From NCBI GenBank assembly GCA_964017185.1, contig OZ024875.1, forward strand, positions 23,941,456 through 24,005,455: a DNA stretch of 64,000 nucleotides, read 5' to 3'. Below are positions 25,165 through 64,000 of this stretch, in pieces. The notes below the pieces were generated by a model. It did no database searches. It was not told where the DNA came from and saw only the letters and a program-made list of their open reading frames with translations. Position 1 is the first letter of the stretch. Each line of letters starts with the position of its first letter. Position numbers and translations under genes: made by a program. The DNA is from Rugalucina vietnamica. Lineage: Eukaryota; Mollusca; Bivalvia; Lucinida; Lucinidae.

Positions 25165-25165
25165 T

Positions 25166-31260: not shown

Positions 31261-31720
31261 AAGCTGCAGAAAAACACTGAAACTGTACACTGTTTTCAAT
31301 GAAATTAAGATTTGTTTTTACTGTGCTGCTACTTTTTACGCTGATTCGTTCTTATTTTCTTATTTTATTTCTGCTCTCAGCCACGGTCTAGATCATCCCG
31401 TTGAGTTTTCTGGAATCGCATATTCATTCATTCATTCTCAGTCACAAGTCGCAAGATACATCAATTCATTATTATTGTTTTTTTACTTTTTAAAAATTCA
31501 TTAAATGTTTTTTGTTGTTGTTGTTTTTTATCAAAAGATTAGTACTAGATCTATAATTAATATTACACAAAAATGCAGATATTGACGATACGATTTTGAA
31601 CAGTTCAGTGGCGCATCAATGTTGTTTTAGTTAATCTATGACCTAAGGGTATGATTTAAAGCGTGACTGATTTTATGACATGCAGTCTCGGATTATAAAA
31701 CCTTAACCATTTCACATTTT

Positions 31721-33286: not shown

Positions 33287-33817
33287 CCTGTTTACATGAC
33301 AGAAAGATTATCCCTTTATATTAGATTCGAATCCAAGGGAAAATACTCAATTTTTCATTTACTCAAATGGTCCCACTATAAAACGGGCTACACACGATAG
33401 TTGTCTCAAATGTAAATGCAATTTAGCATATCAATATTTATTCAGATTTTGCAAAGAGCATGAACACGTGTTTAATGCCAACATTATCTAGTTTCATTAT
33501 AAAGAATGAAACACTATTACACCTTGTTAAATTAATATTTGGTTCACCCATAAGCTTTGTTTTAACTCATATACGGTTAACCTGGTTCAATACCAATTAT
33601 TTTACCTGTCCCGGCGTTACGCTGTGGGCGGTTCCATGCCAAAGAGGTAAATCCGAGGCCTGGTTATCGCTATTGCACTGCAGCAGGGCCCCGGAGAAGG
33701 TACTAGTTCGACACAAAGTTGAACTATACTCCGCTTAGACTTAGTCTAAGCGAAGAGCGTTGGTGCTGTGCCTTCGCTTCAACTAAGCGGTTCCCTCGGT
33801 GAGGGGCCGCACATCTG

Positions 33818-33950
33818 GGGTAAGGGGGTGGGTATGGAGACCTTCTGGGCCATGGGGACTGGTTTGGTGGGAACGATGAGGGAATGGGTATGGTGGGGGC
33901 CATAGGGAGGGATGGTTGGGAATGGGTGGCGGCGTGGCCCATGAGGTGTG
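33818..33950 (+). repeat. G-rich tract with G-quadruplex potential
   Basis: The plus strand carries many GGG runs with short spacers (for example GGGGTAAGGGGGTGGGTATG and ATGGTGGGGGCCATAGGGAG). Six copies exist because the tract lies in both full and partial block A (about 33.8, 37.2, 38.2, 41.6, 42.7 and 54.5 kb). On the minus strand this gives Pro-rich open frames that I reject as genes. Confidence 0.7.
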
Positions 33951-35069: not shown

Positions 35070-36100
35070 GGGTTGTCATCAGTTCATCGAGATTATTGAT
35101 GCGTCGTGGTTTGTTAATGGATAGTATACATATATAACGGGATTCATATGCGTCGGGAGATCGTTACTAATGCGTTACTCCATATCTTTTGTCCTTATAA
35201 GGTAAGTTCTAGATGTGTTGATTTTGCAAACGAAAACAATGTCGACTATGCAAAATCGGTGTCGGCTTTGATCTGTGAAAATCATTTTTCCACATGAGTC
35301 CAGTTAGTAAGAATTCTTGCATGCTCAACAATTTTAGCTAATGGTTTATAAATGTGGTCAGTAGGTACCACAGGGCCACGAAAACTGGTTGTTTCTTTTC
35401 TGCTCCTATTGTTTGAAGTCTTGAGTGTAAACTAGCAAGTCACAACACAGTCTTTGGGCATTTCTTATCAATCATACATCCAAGTTAGCCTTTAAAACTA
35501 TTTTAAATAATGCGGGCTCGATAACCACCGTTTTAAGTGCCAAAGATAATGATTACAAGTTTTGTATTGGTCCAGGAATTCCATATGGAATACATAATTG
35601 TTAGCTTATCGATTCTGCATACGAAAATACGAAAACATGTGTATCGTCGCTAAATGTAACTGAATGGTCTATTTTCATACGTGGGGTTCAGCTAAGTTCC
35701 CTCGCATCTGTGAAATCAATATAAACTAGCATTTTTTTTTTGTTTGACGACAGAGAGGTATAATTTATAGATATTGTCACTTTTTGTAGCTTTTCGTCTA
35801 CTGGTCGCGTTCATAAACGAATAGCTGAAAAACCACAGATGGCACAAGGATTCCGAATCATTTTCATTGACAAAATAGAAGATTTTTTGCACATCACATC
35901 GGTCGCTGATTTTGCAAACGCGACTTAATTTTCTCGCACGGAAGCAAAAAGTATGATTCTAACAGTCCACAGGCAAAGGATGTATAGAACGCATTCCTAA
36001 CGATCACCAAGGCGCATACAAAGTTACTATAGAATGTATTGAGAAACCACGGCGCATCAATAATTTCGATTAACAGATGGGTCCCAATGAGACTGGAAAG
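35070..36100. repeat. Diverged inverted repeat inside block C
   Basis: The sequence around 35075-35260 (CGAGATTATTGATGCGTCGT) is matched in reverse complement by 35895-36100 (CGAAATTATTGATGCGCCGT on the minus strand) along about 190 bp with many substitutions. This suggests an old TIR-type element of about 1.0 kb. Copies lie in units 2 and 3. The minus-strand 79-codon frame over the right arm has no recognisable domain. Confidence 0.55.
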
Positions 36101-36165
36101 AAAATAATCACAAGTCATTTTCCGACAGCACACTTGAAGAGAAAGATGACTAGCTCTTACCCATC

Positions 36166-37629
36166 AAGGTAGCGACCCGGCTAGTATCAATCAAAAACAA
36201 AGATAACGAAGACAACAGAGAGACAGACAAATTACACAGAAGATATATCATAAAGATAAATTACCTCACTGGGACAGTGACGTTTGACTGGACGGCGAAC
36301 ATGCCAATCTGGACGGTGAAGTTTTTAATGGGATGACAATCACCACAATGGGACGGTATCGTTTTTACTCGGACTTGCCAGTTACGATATTATTAAATAA
36401 AATTACGCATTGCGCTCATCAGTTAAAACTTCAAACTTACAATGTTTATCAACAAAATTTTAATATTAAAACAACAAAAAAAAAAAACAACAAAAAACGA
36501 AAAACAAAACAAAAAAAAAAAAAATCATTTTCCGTTGGTGGGGTTTGAACGAACTACCCATTTCCTTAACGATCGCAATGACGAACAAATGTTGCATTTG
36601 CGACCTTAACCACTCGGCCATGATATTGGGCCTGTTTACATGACAGAAAGATTATCCCTTTATATTAGATTCGAATCCAAGGGAAAATACTCAATTTTTC
36701 ATTTACTCAAATGGTCCCACTATAAAACGGGCTACACACGATAGTTGTCTCAAATGTAAATGCAATTTAGCATATCAATATTTATTCAGATTTTGCAAAG
36801 AGCATGAACACGTGTTTAATGCCAACATTATCTAGTTTCATTATAAAGAATGAAACACTATTACACCTTGTTAAATTAATATTTGGTTCACCCATAAGCT
36901 TTGTTTTAACTCATATACGGTTAACCTGGTTCAATACCAATTATTTTACCTGTCCCGGCGTTACGCTGTGGGCGGTTCCATGCCAAAGGGGTAAATCCGA
37001 GGCCTGGTTATCGCTATTGCACTGCAGTAGGGCCCCGGAGAAGGTACTAGTTCGACACAAAGTTGAACTATACTCCGCTTAGACAGTCTAAGCGAAGAGC
37101 GTTGGTGCTGTGCCTTCGCTTCAACTAAGCGGTTCCCTCGGTGAGGGGCCGCACATCTGGGGTAAGGGGATGGGTATGGAGACCTTCTGGGCCATGGGGA
37201 CTGGTTTGGTGGGAACGATGAGGGAATGGGTATGGTGGGGGCCATAGGGAGGGATGGTTGGGAATGGGTGGCGGCGTGGCCCATGAGGTGTGGTTGAGGT
37301 GGATGGATGTTGCTTTTTTTCTCACCTCGAATGATAATCGATTTAAAATTTATGAAAGATGCTACACAATGATCGCGATTAACTTTTGAGTATAATTTTA
37401 TAAACATTACATATCCTAACAGAATGTGACACCTCTGAACCACAAACGCATTGTGCATTGTAAGAATACACATCAACATTATTGTCGTAATTGCAATTGG
37501 TCCAATTAAAGTTTGCATTTCACACCTAAGTAACTCTTTTTACTCAATCTGATGACCAAATGATAGCGTCTCCGTGTCCCAGTTTGAACAAAGCAAAAAC
37601 CGACATAAAAATTCTTAATTATCTTCATT

Positions 37630-37679
<50 letters not shown>

Positions 37680-40579
37680 AAGCTGCAGAAAAACACTGAA
37701 ACTGTACACTGTTTTCAATGAAATTAAGATTTGTTTTTACTGTGCTGCTACTTTTTACGCTGATTCGTTCTTATTTTCTTATTTTATTTCTGCTCTCAGC
37801 CACGGTCTAGATCATCCCGTTGAGTTTTCTGGAATCGCATATTCATTCATTCATTCTCAGTCACAAGTCGCAAGATACATCAATTCATTATTATTGTTTT
37901 TTTACTTTTTAAAAATTCATTAAATGTTTTTTGTTGTTGTTGTTTTTTATCAAAAGATTAGTACTAGATCTATAATTAATATTACACAAAAATGCAGATA
38001 TTGACGATACGATTTTGAACAGTTACGCGTTACGCTGTGGGCGGTTCCATGCCAAAGAGGTAAATCCGAGGCCTGGTTATCGCTATTGCACTGCAGCAGG
38101 GCCCCGGAGAAGGTACTAGTTCGACACAAAGTTGAACTATACTCCGCTTAGACTTAGTCTAAGCGAAGAGCGTTGGTGCTGTGCCTTCGCTTCAACTAAG
38201 CGGTTCCCTCGGTGAGGGGCCGCACATCTGGGGTAAGGGGGTGGGTATGGAGACCTTCTGGGCCATGGGGACTGGTTTGGTGGGAACGATGAGGGAATGG
38301 GTATGGTGGGGGCCATAGGGAGGGATGGTTGGGAATGGGTGGCGGCGTGGCCCATGAGGTGTGGTTGAGGTGGATGGATGTTGCTTTATTTTGACGGACC
38401 CCCGTAAGGGTGTGTTGAAATTTTTAGAGATGGGCTTTTATTTAGTAACAAAATATATTACTCTTTTTTGTCAGTTTTCTTCTATGATGCTTTTCTCTCA
38501 TACAACATACGAGTGTTATGCCCAGTCTGCATTTAGTCATTCTATGGTTTCTTATTCGTCCGTTTAACGTGCCATGCTCAAACACAATATGGCGGCATTA
38601 TGTTTTACCTCAATTAATACGCACGTAAATAATGATTCTGGCCGGTATTCACTTGTGGTATTATCCACCCTTTAGGGGTTATTCTGAACATTTAACGATA
38701 CATAAGCTGTATTCAAGTTTCTGCTCTAAATACCCCCGAATATGTGGTCTGGGGTGCAGGACACACTTTTTACCCACTTGTCCTGGACAAAATGGTCAAT
38801 ATATTAGGGTATGACTACATTTTGGTTTGTAAATTTGTGTAAAATTATTTTTAAGCAGCGTTTGATTTTTATTTCACTCAAGCAGTTGTTATTGGTTATT
38901 TAAACTGAATTTTGTCAGGTCACATGACCTTTTATATTTTCATTAGTGCAGAACTAACTTGTTGGATTTTACCCCTAAACCTGGAAATCGGCTTTTCAAA
39001 AATGGTTCTTTTTAAGTGGAATTTACTGTGAGAAGTCAACGGCTGCCATGTATTCAATAATCATTGCGCATATATTTAAAGCAGTAGGCTTTATCTACAC
39101 ATGATCATGCACTTTATGGTCATTGTATGGGCCAGTGACATGTCATAACTTCAAGGAAAATGTGTCTTTTTGGGGCGAAAAAATGCCCTTAAAGTGCAGG
39201 GGTGTGGTAGGTTTACATTTGCATAGAGCTTGTCCCAGTCAGCAGAAACTGTTTCTGTTACTGTGAGATGATTTTATGGTCTGTATTTTATTAACTGTGG
39301 GTATAATTGAATGGTTATTAAGGTTTTGAAATTAGGGTGTTCGTTTCAAGCATGTTGCCGTCTGCTCAGCCTCTATGACTACTCGCCAGTGATCGGTGCA
39401 ATATATGCGAAGGGGTCAACTTCTTATGCGACATTGCAGAGGTATATTATTTTTGGAACGCAGCTGTAGACACCAGGCGAATGGGTTGTCATCAGTTCAT
39501 CGAGATTATTGATGCGTCGTGGTTTGTTAATGGATAGTATACATATATAACGGGATTCATATGCGTCGGGAGATCGTTACTAATGCGTTACTCCATATCT
39601 TTTGTCCTTATAAGGTAAGTTCTAGATGTGTTGATTTTGCAAACGAAAACAATGTCGACTATGCAAAATCGGTGTCGGCTTTGATCTGTGAAAATCATTT
39701 TTCCACATGAGTCCAGTTAGTAAGAATTCTTGCATGCTCAACAATTTTAGCTAATGGTTTATAAATGTGGTCAGTAGGTACCACAGGGCCACGAAAACTG
39801 GTTGTTTCTTTTCTGCTCCTATTGTTTGAAGTCTTGAGTGTAAACTAGCAAGTCACAACACAGTCTTTGGGCATTTCTTATCAATCATACATCCAAGTTA
39901 GCCTTTAAAACTATTTTAAATAATGCGGGCTCGATAACCACCGTTTTAAGTGCCAAAGATAATGATTACAAGTTTTGTATTGGTCCAGGAATTCCATATG
40001 GAATACATAATTGTTAGCTTATCGATTCTGCATACGAAAATACGAAAACATGTGTATCGTCGCTAAATGTAACTGAATGGTCTATTTTCATACGTGGGGT
40101 TCAGCTAAGTTCCCTCGCATCTGTGAAATCAATATAAACTAGCATTTTTTTTTTTGTTTGACGACAGAGAGGTATAATTTATAGATATTGTCACTTTTTG
40201 TAGCTTTTCGTCTACTGGTCGCGTTCATAAACGAATAGCTGAAAAACCACAGATGGCACAAGGATTCCGAATCATTTTCATTGACAAAATAGAAGATTTT
40301 TTGCACATCACATCGGTCGCTGATTTTGCAAACGCGACTTAATTTTCTCGCACGGAAGCAAAAAGTATGATTCTAACAGTCCACAGGCAAAGGATGTATA
40401 GAACGCATTCCTAACGATCACCAAGGCGCATACAAAGTTACTATAGAATGTATTGAGAAACCACGGCGCATCAATAATTTCGATTAACAGATGGGTCCCA
40501 ATGAGACTGGAAAGAAAATAATCACAAGTCATTTTCCGACAGCACACTTGAAGAGAAAGATGACTAGCTCTTACCCATC
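36166..40579 (+). repeat. Segmental duplication unit 2 (A + B' + partial A + C)
   Basis: Period 4414 bp to the next unit. Order: block A (36166-37311), B' (37312-38024), a second copy of the last third of A starting GCGTTACGCTGTGGGCGG (38026 to about 38385), then C (to 40579). B' is thus framed by two direct copies of about 350 bp of A. Differences from unit 3 are only a handful of bases and homopolymer lengths. No gene is recognised. It contains a tRNA-like copy (36525-36630), a CT microsatellite (37635-37675) and two G-rich tracts. Confidence 0.9.
36525..36630 (-). tRNA. tRNA-Ser/Leu-like sequence, unit 2 copy
   Basis: Nearly identical to the sequence at 33181-33286, with the A box GGCCGAGTGGTTAAGG on the minus strand. 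It has GTTCGTTCAAACC where unit 1 has GTTTGTTCAAACC. Same doubts about function. Confidence 0.45.
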
Positions 40580-40938
40580 AAGGTAGCGACCCGGCTAGTA
40601 TCAATCAAAAACAAAGATAACGAAGACAACAGAGAGACAGACAAATTACACAGAAGATATATCATAAAGATAAATTACCTCACTGGGACAGTGACGTTTG
40701 ACTGGACGGCGAACATGCCAATCTGGACGGTGAAGTTTTTAATGGGATGACAATCACCACAATGGGACGGTATCGTTTTTACTCGGACTTGCCAGTTACG
40801 ATATTATTAAATAAAATTACGCATTGCGCTCATCAGTTAAAACTTCAAACTTACAATGTTTATCAACAAAATTTTAATATTAAAACAACAAAAAAAAAAA
40901 CAACAAAAAACGAAAAACAAAACAAAAAAAAAAAAAAA

Positions 40939-41044
40939 TCATTTTCCGTTGGTGGGGTTTGAACGAACTACCCATTTCCTTAACGATCGCAATGACGAAC
41001 AAATGTTGCATTTGCGACCTTAACCACTCGGCCATGATATTGGG
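40939..41044 (-). tRNA. tRNA-Ser/Leu-like sequence, unit 3 copy
   Basis: Same sequence and caveats as the copies in units 1 and 2. It matches the unit 2 copy as far as I can read. Confidence 0.45.
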
Positions 41045-42043
41045 CCTGTTTACATGACAGAAAGATTATCCCTTTATATTAGATTCGAATCCAAGGGAAA
41101 ATACTCAATTTTTCATTTACTCAAATGGTCCCACTATAAAACGGGCTACACACGATAGTTGTCTCAAATGTAAATGCAATTTAGCATATCAATATTTATT
41201 CAGATTTTGCAAAGAGCATGAACACGTGTTTAATGCCAACATTATCTAGTTTCATTATAAAGAATGAAACACTATTACACCTTGTTAAATTAATATTTGG
41301 TTCACCCATAAGCTTTGTTTTAACTCATATACGGTTAACCTGGTTCAATACCAATTATTTTACCTGTCCCGGCGTTACGCTGTGGGCGGTTCCATGCCAA
41401 AGGGGTAAATCCGAGGCCTGGTTATCGCTATTGCACTGCAGCAGGGCCCCGGAGAAGGTACTAGTTCGACACAAAGTTGAACTATACTCCGCTTAGACAG
41501 TCTAAGCGAAGAGCGTTGGTGCTGTGCCTTCGCTTCAACTAAGCGGTTCCCTCGGTGAGGGGCCGCACATCTGGGGTAAGGGGATGGGTATGGAGACCTT
41601 CTGGGCCATGGGGACTGGTTTGGTGGGAACGATGAGGGAATGGGTATGGTGGGGGCCATAGGGAGGGATGGTTGGGAATGGGTGGCGGCGTGGCCCATGA
41701 GGTGTGGTTGAGGTGGATGGATGTTGCTTTTTTTCTCACCTCGAATGATAATCGATTTAAAATTTATGAAAGATGCTACACAATGATCGCGATTAACTTT
41801 TGAGTATAATTTTATAAACATTACATATCCTAACAGAATGTGACACCTCTGAACCACAAACGCATTGTGCATTGTAAGAATACACATCAACATTATTGTC
41901 GTAATTGCAATTGGTCCAATTAAAGTTTGCATTTCACACCTAAGTAACTCTTTTTACTCAATCTGATGACCAAATGATAGCGTCTCCGTGTCCCAGTTTG
42001 AACAAAGCAAAAACCGACATAAAAATTCTTAATTATCTTCATT

Positions 42044-42091
<48 letters not shown>

Positions 42092-44939
42092 AAGCTGCAG
42101 AAAAACACTGAAACTGTACACTGTTTTCAATGAAATTAAGATTTGTTTTTACTGTGCTGCTACTTTTTACGCTGATTCGTTCTTATTTTCTTATTTTATT
42201 TCTGCTCTCAGCCACGGTCTAGATCATCCCGTTGAGTTTTCTGGAATCGCATATTCATTCATTCATTCTCAGTCACAAGTCGCAAGATACATCAATTCAT
42301 TATTATTGTTTTTTTACTTTTTAAAAATTCATTAAATGTTTTTTGTTGTTGTTGTTTTTTATCAAAAGATTAGTACTAGATCTATAATTAATATTACACA
42401 AAAATGCAGATATTGACGATACGATTTTGAACAGTTACGCGTTACGCTGTGGGCGGTTCCATGCCAAAGAGGTAAATCCGAGGCCTGGTTATCGCTATTG
42501 CACTGCAGCAGGGCCCCGGAGAAGGTACTAGTTCGACACAAAGTTGAACTATACTCCGCTTAGACTTAGTCTAAGCGAAGAGCGTTGGTGCTGTGCCTTC
42601 GCTTCAACTAAGCGGTTCCCTCGGTGAGGGGCCGCACATCTGGGGTAAGGGGGTGGGTATGGAGACCTTCTGGGCCATGGGGACTGGTTTGGTGGGAACG
42701 ATGAGGGAATGGGTATGGTGGGGGCCATAGGGAGGGATGGTTGGGAATGGGTGGCGGCGTGGCCCATGAGGTGTGGTTGAGGTGGATGGATGTTGCTTTA
42801 TTTTGACGGACCCCCGTAAGGGTGTGTTGAAATTTTTAGAGATGGGCTTTTATTTAGTAACAAAATATATTACTCTTTTTTGTCAGTTTTCTTCTATGAT
42901 GCTTTTCTCTCATACAACATACGAGTGTTATGCCCAGTCTGCATTTAGTCATTCTATGGTTTCTTATTCGTCCGTTTAACGTGCCATGCTCAAACACAAT
43001 ATGGCGGCATTATGTTTTACCTCAATTAATACGCACGTAAATAATGATTCTGGCCGGTATTCACTTGTGGTATTATCCACCCTTTAGGGGTTATTCTGAA
43101 CATTTAACGATACATAAGCTGTATTCAAGTTTCTGCTCTAAATACCCCCGAATATGTGGTCTGGGGTGCAGGACACACTTTTTACCCACTTGTCCTGGAC
43201 AAAATGGTCAATATATTAGGGTATGACTACATTTTGGTTTGTAAATTTGTGTAAAATTATTTTTAAGCAGCGTTTGATTTTTATTTCACTCAAGCAGTTG
43301 TTATTGGTTATTTAAACTGAATTTTGTCAGGTCACATGACCTTTTATATTTTCATTAGTGCAGAACTAACTTGTTGGATTTTACCCCTAAACCTGGAAAT
43401 CGGCTTTTCAAAAATGGTTCTTTTTAAGTGGAATTTACTGTGAGAAGTCAACGGCTGCCATGTATTCAATAATCATTGCGCATATATTTAAAGCAGTAGG
43501 CTTTATCTACACATGATCATGCACTTTATGGTCATTGTATGGGCCAGTGACATGTCATAACTTCAAGGAAAATGTGTCTTTTTGGGGCGAAAAAATGCCC
43601 TTAAAGTGCAGGGGTGTGGTAGGTTTACATTTGCATAGAGCTTGTCCCAGTCAGCAGAAACTGTTTCTGTTACTGTGAGATGATTTTATGGTCTGTATTT
43701 TATTAACTGTGGGTATAATTGAATGGTTATTAAGGTTTTGAAATTAGGGTGTTCGTTTCAAGCATGTTGCCGTCTGCTCAGCCTCTATGACTACTCGCCA
43801 GTGATCGGTGCAATATATGCGAAGGGGTCAACTTCTTATGCGACATTGCAGAGGTATATTATTTTTGGAACGCAGCTGTAGACACCAGGCGAATGGGTTG
43901 TCATCAGTTCATCGAGATTATTGATGCGTCGTGGTTTGTTAATGGATAGTATACATATATAACGGGATTCATATGCGTCGGGAGATCGTTACTAATGCGT
44001 TACTCCATATCTTTTGTCCTTATAAGGTAAGTTCTAGATGTGTTGATTTTGCAAACGAAAACAATGTCGACTATGCAAAATCGGTGTCGGCTTTGATCTG
44101 TGAAAATCATTTTTCCACATGAGTCCAGTTAGTAAGAATTCTTGCATGCTCAACAATTTTAGCTAATGGTTTATAAATGTGGTCAGTAGGTACCACAGGG
44201 CCACGAAAACTGGTTGTTTCTTTTCTGCTCCTATTGTTTGAAGTCTTGAGTGTAAACTAGCAAGTCACAACACAGTCTTTGGGCATTTCTTATCAATCAT
44301 ACATCCAAGTTAGCCTTTAAAACTATTTTAAATAATGCGGGCTCGATAACCACCGTTTTAAGTGCCAAAGATAATGATTACAAGTTTTGTATTGGTCCAG
44401 GAATTCCATATGGAATACATAATTGTTAGCTTATCGATTCTGCATACGAAAATACGAAAACATGTGTATCGTCGCTAAATGTAACTGAATGGTCTATTTT
44501 CATACGTGGGGTTCAGCTAAGTTCCCTCGCATCTGTGAAATCAATATAAACTAGCATTTTTTTTTTGTTTGACGACAGAGAGGTATAATTTATAGATATT
44601 GTCACTTTTTGTAGCTTTTCGTCTACTGGTCGCGTTCATAAACGAATAGCTGAAAAACCACAGATGGCACAAGGATTCCGAATCATTTTCATTGACAAAA
44701 TAGAAGATTTTTTGCACATCACATCGGTCGCTGATTTTGCAAACGCGACTTAATTTTCTCGCACGGAAGCAAAAAGTATGATTCTAACAGTCCACAGGCA
44801 AAGGATGTATAGAACGCATTCCTAACGATCACCAAGGCGCATACAAAGTTACTATAGAATGTATTGAGAAACCACGGCGCATCAATAATTTCGATTAACA
44901 GATGGGTCCCAATGAGACTGGAAAGAAAATAATCACAAG

Positions 44940-46346
44940 AAGGTACAAGTAGGCAAAGATCAGGAAAAGGTGCAATCAGAAAAAGATTCCCACTCCAAAA
45001 ACCGAGGCGGGAAAAAACCAAACCAACAACCAGGCACTTATACCATGAAACATATCGTAAGCCGAATGAGCAGCTATTTTCCCAATAGGTGGCCACTCAG
45101 TTACCTTAACTTAACTAAAAATATGAAAACATACATAAGGCGCCAACAGCACAAAAAAATTTTCAAACACCAAGACATAAAACGAAAAGAACCACCACAG
45201 AAGTATCGACTTGGAACGATCAGTAACACAAAGTTACTGGCGGGCTTAAACCGGTTTTACATGGTCATAACCTCACCCTCAGCTTCTGCAGTGGTTCATA
45301 ACATTTAGTTAGTTATTCGGTCCTCGTGGTGAATCTCTAACTAGTCAATGAATCATCAAGAACAAACAAATAAATCATGATAAACATCCTGATGAATCAA
45401 AAACCAGGACTCACAGACTGAGTAAGCTGCCCGACGATGGAGATCCCTGGGCGCCGAATAACCTACTAACTCCGGAGCAAAAGAAAAACACCAGTTGGAC
45501 CCCGGTGGGCCAAGCAACAGACAAGAAGCTCCGGCCCCAACCAACTAAAATGAATAGCTTTATGTCGGGGCCATCATAGAGTCTGACGCCCGACCCACCG
45601 GCGTGCAATTAAAGAAGGCAGCATAGTTATCAACCATGATTGGGTTAAAAACTAAGCATGCAGACTGTCGCATAACATTCAAGTTATAACCTATACGTTT
45701 GTAACGTGTTATGATTTTTCTGAACTGAAAAGAAAAATCATTAATTCCTTTAAGTTTCTTAAATTTGTAAACCAAGTCACCATAAAATTCAGGTTCCGAA
45801 AGGCCCTCACTTAAAAGCGTCTTTAACCCAACATTATATTTGGAAATCAATTCATAGTGTCTACGATAAAATTTAGAAAATGTTTTTCGAAGTTTATGAT
45901 ACCGATAGCCCTGTTGGAGAAGTTTTGCCGTTAAACATTTATTTCGAGCGTTGAAGTCTGTAACATGATTGCAGACTCTAGCAAACCTAATAAGTTGCGA
46001 AATGTATACACCATAAGAAGCACGACGAGGAACGTCACCATCCAAAAAAGGAAAATTTACTATATCAAAATCAAAGTCATCGCGCTTGTCATAAATTTTA
46101 GAAGAAACAAATCCATTTGCAACAGAAAGATGTAGATCTAAAAAGGGGGCTTCAGTATCTGAGATATTGGCTTTGTTCAACTGAAGTTCAGGTGGATAAA
46201 TTTGATTGACCATACCTTCAAAATAAGGATTGTCAATGTTCAAAAGGTCATCGAGGTACCTAGATGTGGAATTAAAAGCCTCGATAACATCAGCTTGATT
46301 ATCATGGTTAAGAGAATCCATGAAATCTCTTTCGTAGCAGTATAAA
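44940..46346 (-). mobile_element. Penelope-like retroelement, copy 2, 5'-truncated
   Basis: A minus-strand element within block C of unit 3. The empty site AATCACAAGTCATTTT is intact in units 1 and 2, which places the insertion exactly and shows a short duplication of about AAG. It starts later in the reverse transcriptase than copy 1 and shares the same 3' end. The two copies differ by scattered substitutions, so they are separate insertions and not part of the duplication. Confidence 0.85.
45560..46345 (-). CDS. Penelope-type reverse transcriptase, C-terminal part
   Basis: The frame begins inside the polymerase at LYCYERDFMDSLNHDNQ and continues through RYLDDLLNIDN, KIYDKRDDFDFDIVNFPF and YGVYISQLIRFARVC to the C-terminus NCTPVGRASDSMMAPT. 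About 260 residues match copy 1 closely, with a few conservative changes (for example GKIISRYRR in copy 1 against RKIITRYKR). The open frame extends a few codons upstream into the host repeat (MCCRKMT), which is chance. A partial, non-functional polymerase. Confidence 0.85.
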   Translation of the reverse strand, partial: LYCYERDFMDSLNHDNQADVIEAFNSTSRYLDDLLNIDNPYFEGMVNQIYPPELQLNKANISDTEAPFLDLHLSVANGFVSSKIYDKRDDFDFDIVNFPFLDGDVPRRASYGVYISQLIRFARVCNHVTDFNARNKCLTAKLLQQGYRYHKLRKTFSKFYRRHYELISKYNVGLKTLLSEGLSEPEFYGDLVYKFKKLKGINDFSFQFRKIITRYKRIGYNLNVMRQSACLVFNPIMVDNYAAFFNCTPVGRASDSMMAPT

Positions 46347-53726: not shown

Positions 53727-54967
53727 TTAAATAAAATTACGCATTGCGCTCATCAGTTAAAACTTCAAACTTACAATGTTTATCAACAAAATTTTAATAT
53801 TAAAACAACAAAAAAAAAAAAAAAAACAACAAAAAACGAAAAACAAAACAAAAAAAAAAAAATCATTTTCCGTTGGTGGGGTTTGAACGAACTACCCATT
53901 TCCTTAACGATCGCAATGACGAACAAATGTTGCATTTGCGACCTTAACCACTCGGCCATGATATTGGGCCTGTTTACATGACAGAAAGATTATCCCTTTA
54001 TATTAGATTCGAATCCAAGGGAAAATACTCAATTTTTCATTTACTCAAATGGTCCCACTATAAAACGGGCTACACACGATAGTTGTCTCAAATGTAAATG
54101 CAATTTAGCATATCAATATTTATTCAGATTTTGCAAAGAGCATGAACACGTGTTTAATGCCAACATTATCTAGTTTCATTATAAAGAATGAAACACTATT
54201 ACACCTTGTTAAATTAATATTTGGTTCACCCATAAGCTTTGTTTTAACTCATATACGGTTAACCTGGTTCAATACCAATTATTTTACCTGTCCCGGCGTT
54301 ACGCTGTGGGCGGTTCCATGCCAAAGGGGTAAATCCGAGGCCTGGTTATCGCTATTGCACTGCAGCAGGGCCCCGGAGAAGGTACTAGTTCGACACAAAG
54401 TTGAACTATACTCCGCTTAGACAGTCTAAGCGAAGAGCGTTGGTGCTGTGCCTTCGCTTCAACTAAGCGGTTCCCTCGGTGAGGGGCCGCACATCTGGGG
54501 TAAGGGGATGGGTATGGAGACCTTCTGGGCCATGGGGACTGGTTTGGTGGGAACGATGAGGGAATGGGTATGGTGGGGGCCATAGGGAGGGATGGTTGGG
54601 AATGGGTGGCGGCGTGGCCCATGAGGTGTGGTTGAGGTGGATGGATGTTGCTTTTTTTCTCACCTCGAATGATAATCGATTTAAAATTTATGAAAGATGC
54701 TACACAATGATCGCGATTAACTTTTGAGTATAATTTTATAAACATTACATATCCTAACAGAATGTGACACCTCTGAACCACAAACGCATTGTGCATTGTA
54801 AGAATACACATCAACATTATTGTCGTAATTGCAATTGGTCCAATTAAAGTTTGCATTTCACACCTAAGTAACTCTTTTTACTCAATCTGATGACCAAATG
54901 ATAGCGTCTCCGTGTCCCAGTTTGAACAAAGCAAAAACCGACATAAAAATTCTTAATTATCTTCATT

Positions 54968-55021
<54 letters not shown>

Positions 55022-55079
55022 AAGCTGCAGAAAAACACTGAAACTGTACACTGTTTTCAATGAAATTAAGATTTGTTTT
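53727..55079 (+). repeat. Segmental duplication unit 4, rest of A and start of B'
   Basis: This continues block A from the restored TTAA site, includes an A-rich tract, a tRNA-like copy (53863-53968) and a G-rich tract, then enters B' at about 54652 with its CT microsatellite (54972-55016). It stops at GATTTGTTTT where the Crypton-like dimer is inserted. Confidence 0.9.
53863..53968 (-). tRNA. tRNA-Ser/Leu-like sequence, unit 4 copy
   Basis: Fourth copy of the sequence at 33181-33286, in the unit 2/3 version of the B box. Same doubts about function. Confidence 0.45.
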
Positions 55080-56088
55080 AAATGATATATAACATATAGA
55101 GGCAATGATCACCCTTCATTCGCCGCAACAAAACCTTATATGCAACATACATTCTGTTCTATATAAAATACACGCCAATAACGAGCTTACGCTTTCAGTG
55201 AGGGTGGAGCCCTGTAGGAGGACAGAGGCACCCTGTGTGACTGAAAACTGGGGTTTCAGTGAGGGTGTGGCCAGCACCCTGTGTGACTGAAACGAGGATT
55301 CAGTGAGGATGGAGCCCTCTGCAAAGAGGACAGAACACCCTGTGAGACTGAATGTTTGCATGTAACCCCAGTGAGGATGGAGCTCATGGCATGATTGAGC
55401 AGAAGCATCCTGTGTGACTGGGGTTGCCAGTGAGGATGGAGCCCAAATGGCAGGCAGATGCATCCTGTGTGACTGGCGTGTGGCGTGGATGTAGCCCAAA
55501 CGACAGGCATGTACATCCGGCACCGAGGATGGAGCCCTGATGGCGGGCTGAAGTTGGAGTATGGTAAGTGCGGATGGAGCCTGAATGAAGGCAGAAGCAT
55601 CCTGCACCGAGGATGGAGCCCTAATGACGGGCAGATGCATCCTGCAAATAGTATAGTGCGGATGGAGCCTGAATGGAAGGCTGATACATCCTGCACCGTG
55701 GATGGAGCCCAAATGATGAGCAGAAGCATCCATGGAATTGATTACCGGCGTTTATTCCACATAGATGTATGTAATGTGATTTTGGGTATAAGATTCTCTA
55801 ATGAAGGGTAAGCATCCCCGGAAAGAGTGCAAAGACAAAAAAAAAAAAAACAGACACAAAGACGATTGGAGGCGGATGGGGAAGGTGGTGGTTAGCGTTA
55901 AAATTAGCTCCGCTCTGACTGAAAATTGCTACAACACTAGGCTGGCCAAAACTCTGCATATCATTAAATGAACTTTTGCAATGATTGGCTGAAAAAAAAA
56001 AAAAATAAAACAAGCATATACTGTTGCTAGAGGCGCTGTGAGGAATTAAACATACACCATTTAAAATTCATGTCTAAACGACATCCAC
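55080..56088 (-). mobile_element. Crypton-like element, internally deleted copy (first of dimer)
   Basis: A 1.0-kb element starting AAATGATATATAACA and ending ACGACATCCAC, joined by a shared TTT to a second, longer copy with the same ends. It keeps about 700 bp of the left terminal region (55095-55797) and about 205 bp of the right (55884-56088), with about 85 bp of its own in between. It has no recombinase coding. The strand is that of the coding in its partner. Confidence 0.75.
55195..55740 (+). repeat. Imperfect tandem repeats of about 60 bp, GGATGGAGCCC type
   Basis: About nine diverged units centred on GAGGATGGAGCC and GCATCCTGTGTGACTG. The identical array recurs at 56313-56858 in the second copy. 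Open frames on both strands over it (up to 205 codons) show only this repeat and are rejected as genes. The position next to one element end suggests a subterminal array. Confidence 0.8.
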
Positions 56089-56312
56089 TTTAAATGATAT
56101 ATAACACAAGGCTTATAAGGTTTAATGAATATGGATGCATATATTCAGCATAACTACAACAACAACTTATATACGTCATTTCAAACATACATACTCAATA
56201 ATCATTTGGCAATATAGAGGCAATGATCACCCTTCATTCGCCGCAACAAAACCTTATATGCAACATACATTCTGTTCTATATAAAATACACGCCAATAAC
56301 GAGCTTACGCTT

Positions 56313-56858
56313 TCAGTGAGGGTGGAGCCCTGTAGGAGGACAGAGGCACCCTGTGTGACTGAAAACTGGGGTTTCAGTGAGGGTGTGGCCAGCACCCTGT
56401 GTGACTGAAACGAGGATTCAGTGAGGATGGAGCCCTCTGCAAAGAGGACAGAACACCCTGTGAGACTGAATGTTTGCATGTAACCCCAGTGAGGATGGAG
56501 CTCATGGCATGATTGAGCAGAAGCATCCTGTGTGACTGGGGTTGCCAGTGAGGATGGAGCCCAAATGGCAGGCAGATGCATCCTGTGTGACTGGCGTGTG
56601 GCGTGGATGTAGCCCAAACGACAGGCATGTACATCCGGCACCGAGGATGGAGCCCTGATGGCGGGCTGAAGTTGGAGTATGGTAAGTGCGGATGGAGCCT
56701 GAATGAAGGCAGAAGCATCCTGCACCGAGGATGGAGCCCTAATGACGGGCAGATGCATCCTGCAAATAGTATAGTGCGGATGGAGCCTGAATGGAAGGCT
56801 GATACATCCTGCACCGTGGATGGAGCCCAAATGATGAGCAGAAGCATCCATGGAATTG
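56313..56858 (+). repeat. Imperfect tandem repeats of about 60 bp, second copy
   Basis: Essentially identical to 55195-55740, one element length apart. Confidence 0.8.
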
Positions 56859-57126
56859 ATTACCGGCGTTTATTCCATATAGATGTATGTGATGTGATTT
56901 TGGGTATAAGATTCTCCAAACATAAACCTGATTTAATGAACAGTAATCAAGGCCTCCACATCATAATATACTCAAAAGTGAAATTTAATCAGGTGATTGT
57001 CCCAAAATCAATGTAGGAAAGTATTTGAAGGAAATATAGATTGATATACAATATTTACAAAACATTAAACAAAGGGAAAGCAATCGAAAATACAGGAACA
57101 CAAAGCAATAATCAATGTCATCGTTC

Positions 57127-57636
57127 TTAAACTGCAGCTAAGGCTAATTGTGCATTGCGAAGAGCAGACTCATTTACATCAACATACACTTTCCAATCAT
57201 CAGATGACCACCTGCCTAACTTTTGCAGAACACTAATGGACAGCTTAGCTGAATGGCCTGCACAGGCAGCTCCTCGTCGCAGGCTGTGTCCGTTAAAGTC
57301 GACATCATTGTAATGTAATAAACGGATTACCGTGCGCATTTCTTCAATGAAATATTGTCTACTCAACACCTCACCATTTGCAAGTAAAAATAACGGATCA
57401 TTGGCTTTGGCTCCAGATTTTAAACGTAAACTGTAGAATCGTCTCATCAACATGACAGGACAAATGTCTGTATCATTAGCAAAAATCGGAATATTTACAC
57501 CCGCAGAGCTTGTGTCTGACTTTGAATGCTTGAGATGAAGTGAGAAATTGGTGTTATCAGATGCGAACTGAATATCAGCCATGCATAGATTGTACTCCCT
57601 ATCGACTTGTAAATTCTCCACATCGCAGAAACCCAA
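57127..57636 (-). CDS. Tyrosine recombinase catalytic domain, partial
   Basis: A 169-codon minus-strand frame. HLKHSKSD (residues 34-41) fits the beta-hairpin lysine, NGHSLRRGAA (115-124) is the H-x-x-R box, LGRWSSDD (140-147) has Trp in the second His position, and Tyr151 in VYVDV is the likely nucleophile. This is the C-terminal half of the integrase/recombinase fold that cuts and rejoins DNA through a covalent tyrosine link. The first catalytic arginine region and the N-terminal DNA-binding domain are not in this frame, so the methionine is unlikely to be the true start. The product resembles Crypton/DIRS-type recombinases common in invertebrates. Confidence 0.8.
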   Translation of the reverse strand: MGFCDVENLQVDREYNLCMADIQFASDNTNFSLHLKHSKSDTSSAGVNIPIFANDTDICPVMLMRRFYSLRLKSGAKANDPLFLLANGEVLSRQYFIEEMRTVIRLLHYNDVDFNGHSLRRGAACAGHSAKLSISVLQKLGRWSSDDWKVYVDVNESALRNAQLALAAV

Positions 57637-57939
57637 AAAATGCCATTGTACAAGCTACAGACATTAAAAGATTGTTGTACATAGACGTACGTTTTCCTAC
57701 GAGATATTGTACCATCGATTGCAAAATTGTGTAAGTGACAGGCAATCGTGTTCGTTTAACATGTTTTTGCAACCTTTTGACTCCCCGTAAAACTAATCTT
57801 AACTTCCCTGAATTGCTATATCAGGAAAATTGGCAACCATATCCCTGACAACATAACAGTGTTTAATGCCTGACAAATATTCAAACATTGGCCCGTAAAT
57901 GCACTATCTTCACTGTATACAAAAGCCATCAAGAACTAT

Positions 57940-58160
57940 AAAGGGAAGTAACTCAAAAGGGACTGGCCCCTAGCCCTTAATTTTTGCATGTGCATATTTG
58001 CCCCATTTATCTCCAGATGCCTGTAAAGTTTCATGAAATTCCATCTATGGGTCTTCAAGATATTAAAGAAACAAATCGTTACGGACGGACGCACGGACGG
58101 ACACACGGACGCACAGACGGACGCACGGATGAACTCCCGGTCCTGAGTGTAAGCTGGGCA
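57940..58160 (+). repeat. Insert with GGAC-type microsatellite
   Basis: Sequence lying between two related recombinase-gene segments. The middle (about 58078-58132) consists of imperfect ACGGACGGACGC repeats. Frames on both strands over it (Arg/Ser/Val-rich) are repeat artefacts. Confidence 0.65.
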
Positions 58161-58179
58161 AAATTCCTGTACCATTATC

Positions 58180-58520
58180 ATCGGAATATTTACACCCGAA
58201 CAGCTCTGTCCGATTTTGAATGCTTGAGTGGAAGTGAGCATTTGATGTAAACAGATGCGAACTTAATATCAGCCATACATAGATTGTACTTCCTTTCGAA
58301 TTAATATTGCGATTGTAAAATGGCAAAATAAATAATAAAAATAAAATGACATGGTACAAGCAACAGACAGCAAAACATTGGTGCTAACAGTTGTAAGCTT
58401 CACTAAGAGATATTACATCATTGATTGCAAAATTGTGTAAGTGAACTTTTAACATGTTTTTGCAACCTTTAAAATTTTCCGCTCCCAGTAAGACTAATCT
58501 AAACTTGGCAACCACAACCT
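58180..58520 (-). pseudogene. Diverged partial duplicate of the recombinase gene region
   Basis: GAATATTTACACCCG, TTTGAATGCTTGAG, ATATCAGCCAT.CATAGATTG and GCAAAATTGTGTAAGTGA all recur here from 57485-57800, in the same order and strand, with many substitutions and small gaps. Only the segment around the beta-hairpin and the upstream flank is duplicated. It cannot encode a recombinase. It shows that the element has an older internal tandem duplication or is a mosaic of two related elements. Confidence 0.65.
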
Positions 58521-58626
58521 TGACTACATAAAGGATTGTTTAATTGAGATATATGTCAAGCCCGTATCAAAGCAAAATGGTACGAAATGAAAGACAAAAT
58601 AAACAAACATGTGTTAGTGCGTATAC

Positions 58627-58630
<4 letters not shown>

Positions 58631-58661
<31 letters not shown>
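58631..58661 (+). repeat. A-run
   Basis: About 31 adenines inside the Crypton-like element. No element could be assigned to it. Short frames downstream (58666-58866) have no recognisable domain. Confidence 0.9.
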
Positions 58662-58664
<3 letters not shown>

Positions 58665-59689
58665 AATGCAGACGGATACTAGTGGTGTGTTCCTTCCGAA
58701 AGACCGTTGTAAAGAATTCTTTGTACAGTGTTCATTATATGAGAACTCAGGCTTCTTCGGAGGGACTAGTTGGACAGGTTCTGCCGATGGCACAATATGT
58801 CTAAAGGTCGCATGTCTGATTGGTTTGTGTAAAGCATGTAGAAAGGAGTTATGGATGCTGAACTAGCTATTATGATGTAATTGGTTTGCCCAGTGGTGGC
58901 CTGGAGAATGCCGAAGTTGGCTTCACTAGAAATGTCAATAGCTTATCATTAGGAACTCGTGCCATTTCATGCAATTGCTGTAACAGCTATGTTGTGGTCG
59001 CACAAATGGGTCAGAAAGCGTATCTGATTTCATGTGTTAGATATCGTTGCAGTTTGTGCGAGTAATTATTTTCAAAGGAAGAAGTAGGTCAGCACTAGAC
59101 TGGCTACAGCCGAAACATGCTTATGTTTGAAAATGTGCATAATTATTAAGATACATGTTCATCTCTAGTTAAATTATTTCTTTCTTTTGACAAATTCCAT
59201 CTCTGCTCCGATCCACTATTTCATGTTTGAAACAGAGCCATCAGAACAAGACTAGAATAAAACTAATTGATGAAAGACATGTTTTATGGACTGGAGCCAG
59301 TCTAAGTCAGCACTTATTTAAATACGAATCTAGTGCTACAGTAATAATAGTGTCTAGCAGTTACCGCCTCTACACTGCTGCACATTGATGATACAGTAGT
59401 TTTTTATCCGACGCAGCGAGGCTTAGCTGCCGAATAATTCATGTGATTAAACAAGCTAGGCTATTCCTGTCTTGTTGTTCGTTGTTGTACATTCCCTTTT
59501 TAAAAAGTTCATGTTTATAGCGATTATCTTGAATACATATCAGCTGTCATATTAACGAAATCCCAGGCACGCCCCTAAATTTCCCAACGCGGTTACAAGT
59601 CCGCTACACTTTTGTGTCATAGCAGGTTGTAATTCGAGTTTCGTTGTTGATTAATAATTGTCTTTCACAACACAAGATCGAAAGCCTGA

Positions 59690-60065
59690 AAACGTTGATA
59701 GATGTCCACATGGCCCAACATGACAGTGTGTGTGTACATGTAACTCATAGCCAACGGCAGACACATGAAGAAACTTTCATGATAATATTGACACTATGCG
59801 GCTGTATAATTTAGGAAGACATCACAGTAGGGTAGCCCTTGCTTTAAGTGTCAAACAGGTTTGTTCCATCCGTTATCCCTGTCTTGAAAAATACATAGCT
59901 CATAGCCAACCGCATACACACGAAGGAACTGCCATGATAATATTGACATCATGTGGCTGTATGAACAGTAGAATAACTGTGCGTTAAGTATCATAAAGTT
60001 TGATTCCCTTCGGTACCCCTGTCCTTTGAATACACAGAGCATCGCCAACGGCATAATGAAGGAAA
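59690..60065 (+). repeat. Three diverged tandem units of about 150 bp
   Basis: CTCATAGCCAACGGCAGACA, CTCATAGCCAACCGCATACA and AGCATCGCCAACGGCATAAT mark successive units, each followed by a GAAG/GAAA and ATGATAATATTGACA phrase (weak in the last). No coding is supported. Confidence 0.7.
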
Positions 60066-60655
60066 TCTGAAACTAGACCAAACACTATACAGTTATATCC
60101 GACATCACCGATACCTTAAAGTACATTATGTGAGTCATAATAAAAGTGTTGTGGTGTATGAAGTTGCATAAGCCCAGAAAAGAAGAACTACTGCAATTAT
60201 ATAACTCAGAGAGAGAGATTGGAGAACATAATGTTTAATGAAGAGATGGATGCCTTAAGTAAATGTCTCATATATATGTTGTATATTATAGAAATATACT
60301 TATCTTAGTCTAAATCGCTGTATTGCAGCATAAGCATAACTGCGCTGTATCTATTCGGTCTTTCCGTCTCTGATTTGTGGATTCATTCAGGACGACTTCT
60401 TCAACCTAGCCATCGTGTAGTGTTAGTCCCTTCTGATTCTCAACATTGATCGGGGATCGCAAGCAAGGTTAATGTAGAGGTTCAATCTGGCCATTGCAGA
60501 CTGCGGCTCCATTAATGACTAGCACACGCTGCATATCTATGAATCACCCGCTTGGGTCCATTGTGAGCCTGATCCCGTCTGATTCCCTCCAGTAGCAGTG
60601 GTATCGGTCGAGTTGAGGCGGTGATTTATACTTGCAACGGCTGATTGTAACTCGA

Positions 60656-61015
60656 TTAATTGTCGGCACACCTCAGCTGATGACTCATTCGCTGAATTCC
60701 CGGGTGACCCATTTCCAGCTGCGTTTGTCTCCCGGCAGAAATGTTTTCGTTAGGTGCAACGTTTTGAATTTGATTTTGGGTCCCTGTTGTCCACGTTAAT
60801 CTATCGTACACTTGACGTATATATCTAACCCCAAGGGTTGATGGTAATTCCACACCCAGTGACTTAAGTCCCAACAACAATTGTTCTTTAGACATGGTTT
60901 CTGAACCCAATCCTGCATCACTGAGCGGTGAACGGCTTCTTTCGACGGTTCGTCCACGGTTACGTCTCCTCAGATTATTTGTCCGTTCCTTGCTACGTCC
61001 AGTACGTTCCGACAT
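60656..61015 (-). CDS. N-terminal exon-like frame of the Crypton-like element
   Basis: A 119-codon minus-strand frame near the 5' side of the element. It opens with a basic Arg/Ser-rich segment (residues 1-32), then MSKEQLLLGLKSLGVELPST (41-60) and RYIRQVYDRLTW (64-75), a helix-turn-helix pattern reminiscent of SAP/LEM-type DNA-binding helices. It lies on the same strand as, and upstream of, the recombinase domain, with about 3 kb between them. It may be the first exon or first part of the recombinase gene. Function is inferred from position and composition only. Confidence 0.5.
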   Translation of the reverse strand: MSERTGRSKERTNNLRRRNRGRTVERSRSPLSDAGLGSETMSKEQLLLGLKSLGVELPSTLGVRYIRQVYDRLTWTTGTQNQIQNVAPNENISAGRQTQLEMGHPGIQRMSHQLRCADN

Positions 61016-61049
61016 GATTGTTTGTAATCCGTAAACGAATTATGGAAGA

Positions 61050-61254
61050 AATAAAATATTAGCGTTAAAATTAGCTCCGCTCTGACTGAAAATTGCTACA
61101 ACACTAGGCTGGCCAAAACTCTGCATATCATTAAATGAACTTTTGCAATGATTGGCTGAAAAAAAAAAAAATAAAACAAGCATATACTGTTGCTAGAGGC
61201 GCTGTGAGGAATTAAACATACACCATTTAAAATTCATGTCTAAACGACATCCAC
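61050..61254 (+). repeat. Right terminal region shared by both Crypton-like copies
   Basis: About 205 bp from TTAGCGTTAAAATTAGC to ACGACATCCAC, matching 55884-56088 almost base for base apart from an A-run length difference. Confidence 0.9.
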
Positions 61255-61719
61255 TTTTACTGTGCTGCTACTTTTTACGCTGATTCGTTCTTATTTTCTT
61301 ATTTTATTTCTGCTCTCAGCCACGGTCTAGATCATCCCGTTGAGTTTTCTGGAATCGCATATTCATTCATTCATTCTCAGTCACAAGTCGCAAGATACAT
61401 CAATTCATTATTATTGTTTTTTTACTTTTTAAAAATTCATTAAATGTTTTTTGTTGTTGTTGTTTTTTATCAAAAGATTAGTACTAGATCTATAATTAAT
61501 ATTACACAAAAATGCAGATATTGACGATACGATTTTGAACAGTTCAGTGGCGCATCAATGTTGTTTTAGTTAATCTATGACCTAAGGGTATGATTTAAAG
61601 CGTGACTGATTTTATGACATGCAGTCTCGGATTATAAAACCTTAACCATTTCACATTTTAGCCGCGGCGTGAGAAAACCGGTATTAGGGGTTATCTTCAT
61701 TCAAATCTCTCTAACCGGC

Positions 61720-61760
<41 letters not shown>

Positions 61761-62974
61761 CTATAATTCAATATTACACAAAAAATGCGACACGATTTTG
61801 ATCACGATCAGTGGCGCATCAATGTTGTTTTAGTTTATCTATGACCTAGGGGTATGATTTAAAGCGTGCCTGATTTTATGACATGCAGTCTCGGATTATA
61901 AAACTATACCATTTCACATTTGAGCCGCGGTGTGAGAAAACCGGTACTAGGGGTTTCCGATCAGGTCTGACACAAACCGGCTTGTGTACTACACCATTTG
62001 GCAAGAAGCTTGAAAATTCGGATTGAGGAAGATAAGGAATTGTATTACCCGTGTAGCGAAAACAATGGTGCTGATCAGCTAGGCAACTGCTACACAGCTG
62101 ACCTGAGCCTTTGTTTTTGCATAGTTAAATTCCGGTTTTCGCATGACGCGGCTCATTTTTAATGGAAGGTGTACTTGTTATATAAATATTGCGAAAATGC
62201 AAGGAGTCGATCAGCCTGTGCACTTGAAAAACTTGTCCAAGCGAGGTTTGACGGATTCAAAAGCAAACCGGTCTACGCATACATAAATACTTGAAAATTG
62301 GAAATAAAGATTAAGCTAGTCATCAGGCTGCGAGGTGGTTCTAATATGTGCCCACAATATATGTTTTGAGCAATAATAAGAAAAATATCAAATAATTTCT
62401 ACTTTTACAATTTGGGAAAAATCTATATATTGCATGGGCGTGTTTTCGTAATGCTTACATTTAATATGTAACATATATCATATACTCATAGCATTTATTT
62501 TGAGGAAGCAATAAATAAATAAATAAATAAATAAATAAATACATGAATAAATAATTAAATAAAAATAATACAACTGAATGCTTACAGTACAAACTGGTCC
62601 ATGAGTTTAACCGCGACGATGCGATTGTCACGGGTACCCACAATGTGCATTCAAGTTTGAATGGGAAAAACACGAGTTTTCTTTCATTCGAAATCGTGTT
62701 GTTGTTTTTTTTACCGTCATCAAAGCCACACATTTTGTATTTCTTTTTTTTTTTCATATTATTTCATAGTCGAAGTTTTGAGTTCATAAATTTTTAAGAC
62801 AATTTATGATCAAATTTTATGGTTGCCCTTAGGCTAAAGTTACACAGGTAATTTTACGGACAGAGGCGCCAAGTAAATCGTAAATCACCGGAAAGAACCG
62901 AAGATGATTTACCTGTACAACTAATCCCCTAAGCTGATAATACGATAAGACGCGCTGAGGAGACTTTTTCCACA
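61255..62974 (+). repeat. Block B, right copy, remainder
   Basis: B' resumes with TTTTACTGTGCTGCTAC and continues into the rest of block B as at 31318-32838, ending CTTTTTCCACATG. Compared with the left copy it contains an extra segment of about 230 bp with an A-run (61727-61757) and a diverged second copy of CAGTGGCGCATCAATGTTGT. The following base starts the satellite. Confidence 0.88.
61921..62155 (+). mobile_element. Family M1 MITE, right copy
   Basis: Starts GAGCCGCGGTGTGAGAAAAC and ends CGCATGACGCGGCTCA. The inverted ends are about 24 bp. It is almost identical to 31794-32020, as expected from the block duplication, and diverged from 7202-7437. Confidence 0.75.
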
Positions 62975-63197: not shown

Positions 63198-64000
63198 CAC
63201 ACTAACTGTTGCAACTGCAACGCTTAGTGTGAACATGTTGACACTAACGGTTGCAACTGCAGCGCTTAGTGAAAAAATATGTTGTCACTAACGGTTGCAA
63301 CTGCAACGCTGGTCTTAAGATGATGACACTAACGGTTGCAACTGCAACGGTTAGTGTTAACATGTTGACACTAACGGTTGCAACTGCAATGCTTAGTGTC
63401 AACGTGTTGATATTAACGGTTGCAACTGCTACACTTAGAGATAAAATGTCAACATTAACGGTTGTAACAGCAACATTTAGTTTTAACGTGTTGACACTTG
63501 CGGTTGCAACTGCAACGCTTAGTATTAACATGTTGACACTAACGGTTGCAACTGCAACGCTTAGTGTTAACATGTTGACACTAACGGTTGCGACTGCAAC
63601 GGTTAGTATTAACATGTTGACACTAACGGTTGCAACTGTAACGATTGGTGTTAACATCTTGACACTAACGATTGCAACTACAATGCTTATTGTTAACGTG
63701 TTGACATTAACGGATGCAACTGCTACACTTATTGTTATAATGTTGACACTAATGGTTGCAACTGCAACGCTTAGTGTTAACATGTTGACACTAACGGTTG
63801 CAATTGCAATGCTTAATGTTATTTTGTTAACATTAACGGTTACAACTGCTACACTTAGTGTTATAATGTTGACACTCGCGTTTGCAACTGCAACGCTTAG
63901 TGTTAACATGTTGAAATTAATGTTTGAAACTGCAACGCTTAGTGTTAACATGTTGACACTAACGGTCGCAACTGCAATGCTTAGTGTTAATATGTTGACA
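63198..64000 (-). repeat. 42-bp satellite array, reverse orientation, right edge open
   Basis: Reverse-orientation units run off the end of the window. Units here are closer to a single consensus than those in the middle of the window. The 235-codon minus-strand frame at 63244-63951 is the 14-residue repeat (MLTLSVAVATVSVN). Confidence 0.95.

Follow-up and report, generated by a model that had tools for sequence, protein, structure and literature searches.

A tandem of short and long units in the genome of Rugalucina vietnamica is most likely a single, damaged retrotransposon copy with split direct repeats, probably of the Ngaro type

In the 64,000-nucleotide stretch of Rugalucina vietnamica DNA analysed here (hereafter the window), a short unit of 1,009 bp (55080-56088) and a long unit of 5,163 bp (56092-61254) lie side by side with common ends and a TTT between them, and together they make up the mobile element under study. 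The window was placed at C7:23941456-24005455 on the plus strand and is part of the genome searched (1.09 Gb, 47 contigs). An earlier note on this DNA had described tandem copies with the same ends, and the tandem is real: the units are identical at 703 of 705 positions in the left end block and at 196 of 197 in the right. The junctions also read as that note gave them, G-TTTT-AAATG on the left, CCAC-TTT-AAATG in the middle and CCAC-TTTT-ACTG on the right. The same is true of the empty site, GATTTGTTTTTACTG, seen at three positions (Table 1) within sister segmental duplicates whose blocks adjoining the insertion are 96.8-100% identical. The T residues balance (5 + 3 + 3 = 4 + 3 + 4), which fits the insertion of a body with a 3-nt junction. 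The region of the empty sister sites is itself a tandem segmental duplication (33614-40528 versus 38027-44939, 99.9% over 6.9 kb).

Read on the coding (minus) strand, the parts follow in the order A1, open reading frames (ORFs), tyrosine recombinase (YR), B1, AAA, A2, spacer and B2, with an A repeat of about 196 bp and a B repeat of 828 bp as bounded in this analysis. The short unit lacks 106 bp directly inside its left end. It contains a 93-bp stretch, the spacer. Eleven of the 12 two-unit elements described below (window counted) have this spacer, as does the sole solo short unit, and C4:34.92 lacks it. Both units contain an array of 11 hairpin-like repeats. Inverted repeats at the ends of the long unit scored no higher than shuffles, and inverted terminal repeats of the DIRS1-like kind were thus not found. 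Two elements have a B repeat with a deletion that begins directly inside its terminal AAATGATATATAA; the repeat is B2 in the window copy, at 55094, and B1 in C11:10.45 (L058/L102).

The 11-mer proposed earlier as a probe for other copies was too short to be useful (76 + 86 matches versus 185 + 175 for controls), whereas the 24-nt middle junction was specific, matching 37 places with up to 3 mismatches (12 exactly) when the controls matched 0 and 2. Among the 37 places, C11:10447017 and C15:38255603 are outer left ends and not internal junctions, the same appears true of C3:22407385 and C16:23207440, and no recognisable A repeat precedes the exact match at C2:73188251. A search with the 200-bp right end returned 40 scored matches of 64 candidates, so the resulting counts are lower bounds. 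The 29 matches scored at 90% or above constitute the window family; 13 are internal, with a TTT or TCT junction next to them, and 16 are terminal, giving 16 loci. At 12 of these 16 loci with a terminal A1, a short unit, TTT or TCT and a long unit follow one another in the same order, and C6:36.36 is a two-unit element with an additional short unit. A solo short unit was found at one locus (C3:76.42), and C5:26.27 has an A1-B form without A2; these are the two solo forms expected from A1xA2 and B1xB2 recombination, and both were seen. The far end was not retrieved at C5:26.24 and C1:8.71, where the 24-nt search gave no junction match. The right flank is common to both C5 loci, which may represent one duplicated insertion. 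The halves of C14:46.7 lie 22.8 kb apart and those of C2:58.07 10 kb apart, and their identical A repeats suggest one element with later insertions in each case.

A second subfamily (for example L036 and L059-L074) with a CATACAC-TTT-AAATAATATATAAC junction occurs genome-wide. Of 45 candidates for its left end, 40 were scored as matches, and 22 of these sit 1.1-1.2 kb from another, as the two-unit layout predicts. Additional tandem units with the same TTT joins were seen at C6:36353800-36363700 (L039; spacing 1714 bp), C4:6.57M (1155 bp) and C13:51.87M (1107 bp), and these loci show that real multimers of the repeat unit exist.

The repeats of one element resemble each other closely. Summed over the 12 two-unit elements, A1 and A2 show 10 differences (mismatches plus gap events, ends trimmed) compared to a random-pairing mean of 35.8, and 0 of 20,000 shuffles were as low. 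B1 and B2 were compared in nine elements, namely eight of the 12 and C2:12.49 of the second subfamily; the other four (C1:32.83, C2:58.07, C4:34.92 and C11:10.45) had one B that was truncated or not retrieved whole and were omitted. The summed differences were 20, compared to a mean of 165.2 (0 of 20,000 shuffles as low), and 14 compared to 30.4 when C2:12.49 was omitted (1 of 20,000). Private marks are likewise duplicated: C4:46.73 has an 8-bp duplication in both A1 and A2, and C2:58.07 has TCT at its left and middle junctions alike. Such identity, with private marks in both copies, is not expected from separate insertions of independent copies. On this ground and on that of the unit order, which is the same in all 12 elements, independent dimerisation is rejected. 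No other form of the family is as common as the two-unit layout, and the earlier term "dimer" is not supported.

Reverse transcriptase (RT) is carried by three family members (C4:46.73, C1:32.83 and C11:10.45); none was seen in the RT-less interior of the window copy, where Pfam was run on two frames only. In C4:46.73 (L038) the same ends and repeats enclose a 427-aa Gag-like frame (weak CCHC match, PF14787, E 0.014, below cut-off), RT-like and RNase H-like frames and the YR. A genome search with this RT gave 151 matches. Among the 150 of 514 candidates that were scored, the protein recurs in two further family members with 98% and 91% identity, and the next by score has 56%. The RT frames of these two members, C1:32.83 (411 aa) and C11:10.45, match RVT_1 with 38 and 35.3 bits (E 1.8e-9 and 1.2e-8; cut-off 29.6), so the family includes retrotransposons. 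Two more distant RT relatives gave 44 bits (above cut-off) and 19.9 bits (below). By sequence, an RT fragment had one match in PDB, to an unrelated protein (E 0.95). Taken over the 16 loci, parts of the RT-less interior are present at 10 (window included), RT at three and neither at three; at C1:8.71, C11:39.94, C12:36.0, C14:46.7 and C15:38.26 the interior was retrieved partly, with no close RT match among the scored matches. No methyltransferase was hit by Pfam at E ≤0.1 in the six frames tested, and no hydrolase in the frames tested. The RNase H-like frame of L038 overlaps the YR frame, which leaves no room for a methyltransferase between them.

The recombinase domain with H-x-x-R, GRW and Tyr that had been noticed inside the element is present as HSLRR, GRW and Y (Table 1). 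The window fragment matches PF00589 with E 2.9e-4 (21.1 bits, cut-off 27.1), and its upstream box MAFFGFLRCGEFT sits in a different frame. The YR of L038, also with HSLRR, GRW and Y, exceeds the cut-off for PF13102 (SAM-like; 25 versus 22.3) and falls below that for PF00589 (E 7.4e-5). Comparison of the window fragment with PDB by sequence gave no match, and no close YR relatives were confirmed in viral and prokaryote collections. A second, diverged copy (about 78-85%) of part of the recombinase gene (57513-57738) lies at 58207-58444, in the RT-less interior.

When the recombinase site was compared across six elements, a 14-nt deletion was common to the window copy, C6:47.53 and C4:34.92 and absent from C4:46.73, C1:32.83 and C6:36.36. 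The three copies that share it have different flanks, and the broken form must therefore have spread after breaking. The two RT-bearing copies compared have another, shared 2-nt gap in the YR. The window copy is an RT-less, YR-broken derivative that was probably moved in trans by proteins made elsewhere. Copies without RT whose recombinase was broken before they spread would represent, in an animal, a trans-mobilised element with split repeats.

Both flanks were available for 15 insertions (the 12 two-unit loci, one solo, one A1-B form and one second-subfamily element). The left core was TTT in 14 and TCT in one, the latter in an element with TCT at its internal junction as well. The right core varied: TTT in seven, TAA in three, and TCA, TTA, AAA, ATT and TCG in one each. 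The base preceding the left core was T in 12 of 15, and the base following the right core was A in 12 of 15.

Split direct repeats with A1 at the 5' end and B1-A2-B2 at the 3' end have been described for Ngaro, PAT and VIPER elements (PMC9210276, PMC4157794, PMC6681497), and Ngaro elements have been reported in most animal phyla examined, one mollusc included (PMC4157794). The Ngaro element DIRS-53_XT of Xenopus (PMC9210276) resembles the present family in having A1 at the 5' end and B1-A2-B2 at the 3' end downstream of the YR. Gag-like, RT and YR frames are shared as well, with no methyltransferase found here, and the RNase H-like frame seen here by motifs may correspond to the RNase H of that element. 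The two differ in repeat length (A 236 bp and B 152 bp in DIRS-53_XT; B 828 bp with a hairpin array here), in the lack of a hydrolase hit in the frames tested here and in the RT-less interior at 10 of our 16 loci. We are highly confident that the feature is one integrated copy, coded on the minus strand, of a YR retrotransposon whose direct repeats are split. Since no methyltransferase was found alongside these repeats and the YR, it is most likely Ngaro-type; this placement goes by architecture, not by tree. The family most likely adds to a known kind of YR retrotransposon with long split direct repeats.

Several observations weigh against this reading. The short unit of C4:34.92 lacks array and spacer, A1 and A2 of C11:10.45 differ by 5 mismatches, and 18 of the 40 scored left ends of the second subfamily have no partner 1.1-1.2 kb away. 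The 18 may be solo, truncated or interrupted forms, or they may be evidence against the layout being general there. At the protein level, the YR is under the PF00589 cut-off, the RT piece of L038 taken alone is under its Pfam cut-off (E 0.051), and the RNase H-like frame (L038:3555-4166), recognised by its motifs, matched nothing in Pfam or PDB. The RT-bearing copies compared carry a break in the YR frame, and no intact autonomous copy was seen among the copies examined. Finally, 8 of 15 insertions have a right core other than TTT, which makes a rule of "identical target trinucleotide" too strict.

A PAT-like or other element of the DIRS group that has lost its methyltransferase would differ from a Ngaro-type element in family placement only. 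PAT elements share the split direct repeats, and a lineage in Caenorhabditis briggsae has been suggested to have lost the methyltransferase domain (PMC4157794). However, PAT-like elements are described as methyltransferase-encoding, no such domain was found here, and the frame overlap in L038 also speaks against this placement. Loss can be told from original absence only by a tree, and we consider the PAT-like alternative unlikely. A different origin of the tandem, by homologous recombination between a circle and a resident copy or by unequal crossing-over instead of a templated internal junction, could account for the additional A2-B2-type units at C6:36.36, C4:6.57 and C13:51.87. For the usual two-unit form it is not favoured and appears very unlikely, given that this form is the commonest, that the spacer is present in 11 of 12 and that element-specific marks occur in both repeats.

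Cryptons have a tyrosine recombinase, a circle model and no inverted repeats, and the first to be described have short direct repeats at their ends, as here (PMC3212892). They differ in encoding no RT, and the available portions of that source do not describe split repeats for them. A Crypton-like DNA transposon joined head to tail with its short non-autonomous derivative by a second site-specific event would explain the T bookkeeping and the exact junctions, and a Rhodnius Crypton has a non-autonomous derivative, animal Cryptons being reported without terminal repeats (PMC3212892); yet the same units stand in the same order at 12 of 16 loci with the short unit alone at only one, the repeats agree within elements and three members encode RT, so that we give this possibility hardly any weight. 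An element with the YR as its sole domain does not agree with the RT in C4:46.73, C1:32.83 and C11:10.45; an RT in full-length relatives had been set beforehand as a result against a Crypton, and the label "Crypton-like" is rejected.

For the retrotransposon with split repeats, the published model of the group suggests the following course. Element RNA would be copied into DNA, with the internal B1-AAA-A2 junction as template for closing both ends to a circle that has a 3-nt junction. The recombinase would exchange this junction with a T-rich target, and no ordinary target duplication would arise. The TTT between the units fits an internal copy of the circle junction. Integration of a circle at a short T-run by a tyrosine recombinase, as proposed in the earlier note, is largely upheld by the exact ends, the 3-nt T junction and the lack of an ordinary target duplication, whereas the second integration that it included is not. 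DIRS1-like elements likewise have a 3-bp circular junction and no target duplication, and they differ in having inverted terminal repeats, internal complementary regions and a methyltransferase (PMC3266345). In the model published for them the 3-bp junction recombines with an identical genomic sequence, without target duplication (PMC3266345). In our family, target identity to the junction trinucleotide seems to be favoured, not required. Most simply, the circle would supply the left core and the target the right core; empty sites prove the target sequence at the window locus only, and right ends may have mutated later.

In 8 of 8 informative insertions the B2-side end keeps the circle trinucleotide and the A1-side end shows that of the target (1 in 256 for this stated direction under a coin-toss model). 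Symmetric inheritance from a double-stranded circle would make both outcomes about equally expected. In several rows of a published table of DIRS1-like elements, one end keeps the junction trinucleotide and the other differs, AcasDIRS1 showing the opposite end (PMC3266345). Integration might be strand-asymmetric, from a single-stranded or otherwise strand-biased intermediate, with the hairpin arrays of the B repeats as a possible cis signal for copying or circle closure; we offer this tentatively and consider it doubtful.

The 11 units of each B repeat are 42-62 nt long and hairpin-capable, unit G having lost one arm. Folding of 56300-56860 gave z-scores relative to shuffles of -6.95 (RNA, coding strand), -3.50 (RNA, other strand) and -4.91 (DNA, plus strand). 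Across 15 array copies one pair was changed on both sides, a count reached by 159 of 500 shuffles. The covariation score was reached by 12 of 500 and the percentage paired by 24 of 500, values that related sequences can give without structure. As covariation across the copies was not clear, we do not claim RNA structure as proven. Between the units of one array, both partners vary at outer-stem positions 5-7 (five units compared) and middle-stem position 3 (in 10 of 11 units), mostly with pairing kept, and pairing breaks at outer positions 7-9. No Rfam family was found in 54500-62000 at E ≤1, and no literature on hairpin arrays in such elements was evident from titles among the matches listed. 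Among possible roles we favour one in cis, in copying or in RNA stability, with low confidence.

A single copy with split direct repeats, viewed in isolation, resembles a head-to-tail dimer, and this tempting misreading is corrected here. Elements of this kind are little studied, and with the junctions that this genome offers, among them those of a locus with three empty sister sites, their circle closure and target choice can be tested.

Table 1. Parts of the window element on the coding strand, its cores and the empty sister sites (window coordinates).
Feature	Position	Strand	Remark
A1, 5' terminal repeat (coding strand)	61059..61254	-	same as A2 except for one gap
Gag-like ORF1 start, shortened here	60656..61039	-	same N-terminus opens the 427-aa frame in L038
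RT-less interior; in RT-bearing relatives its place is taken by the remainder of Gag and by RT and RNase H-like frames	57800..60650	-	
Tyrosine recombinase, C-terminal part (HSLRR, GRW, Y)	57127..57654	-	14-nt deletion near 57606 breaks the frame
B1, internal copy of the 3' repeat, contains hairpin array	56092..56919	-	
11 hairpin-like units in B1	56311..56853	-	folding of 56300-56860, see text
Internal copy of circle junction, TTT (coding strand AAA)	56089..56091	.	
A2, internal copy of A1	55892..56088	-	
A2-B2 spacer	55799..55891	-	in 11/12 two-unit elements
B2, 3' terminal repeat	55080..55798	-	106 bp missing directly inside terminal 14-15 bp; otherwise 703/705 identical to B1
B2 hairpin array	55193..55735	-	identical to B1 array
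Left core TTT, probably circle-derived	55077..55079	.	TTT in 14/15, TCT in 1/15 insertions
Right core TTT, probably target-derived	61255..61257	.	variable, TTT in 7/15
Empty target site, sister duplicate	31309..31323	+	
Empty target site, sister duplicate	37728..37742	+	
Empty target site, sister duplicate	42140..42154	+	

The RT-less interior also holds an ACGG-type microsatellite (58081-58130), presumably of a kind found in mollusc repeats. Elsewhere in the window, long arrays of diverged tandem satellite occupy 1-5872 and 11952-15494, and satellite-related stretches occur within 20022-23358, 29544-30153 and 63199-64000. Frames at 16342-19839 resemble LINE-type endonuclease and RT. Another RT-like frame, which we take to be of the kind found in Penelope-like elements, lies at 24002-25186, in a block (23371-24785) that is duplicated at 44931-46346 with 97.8% identity.

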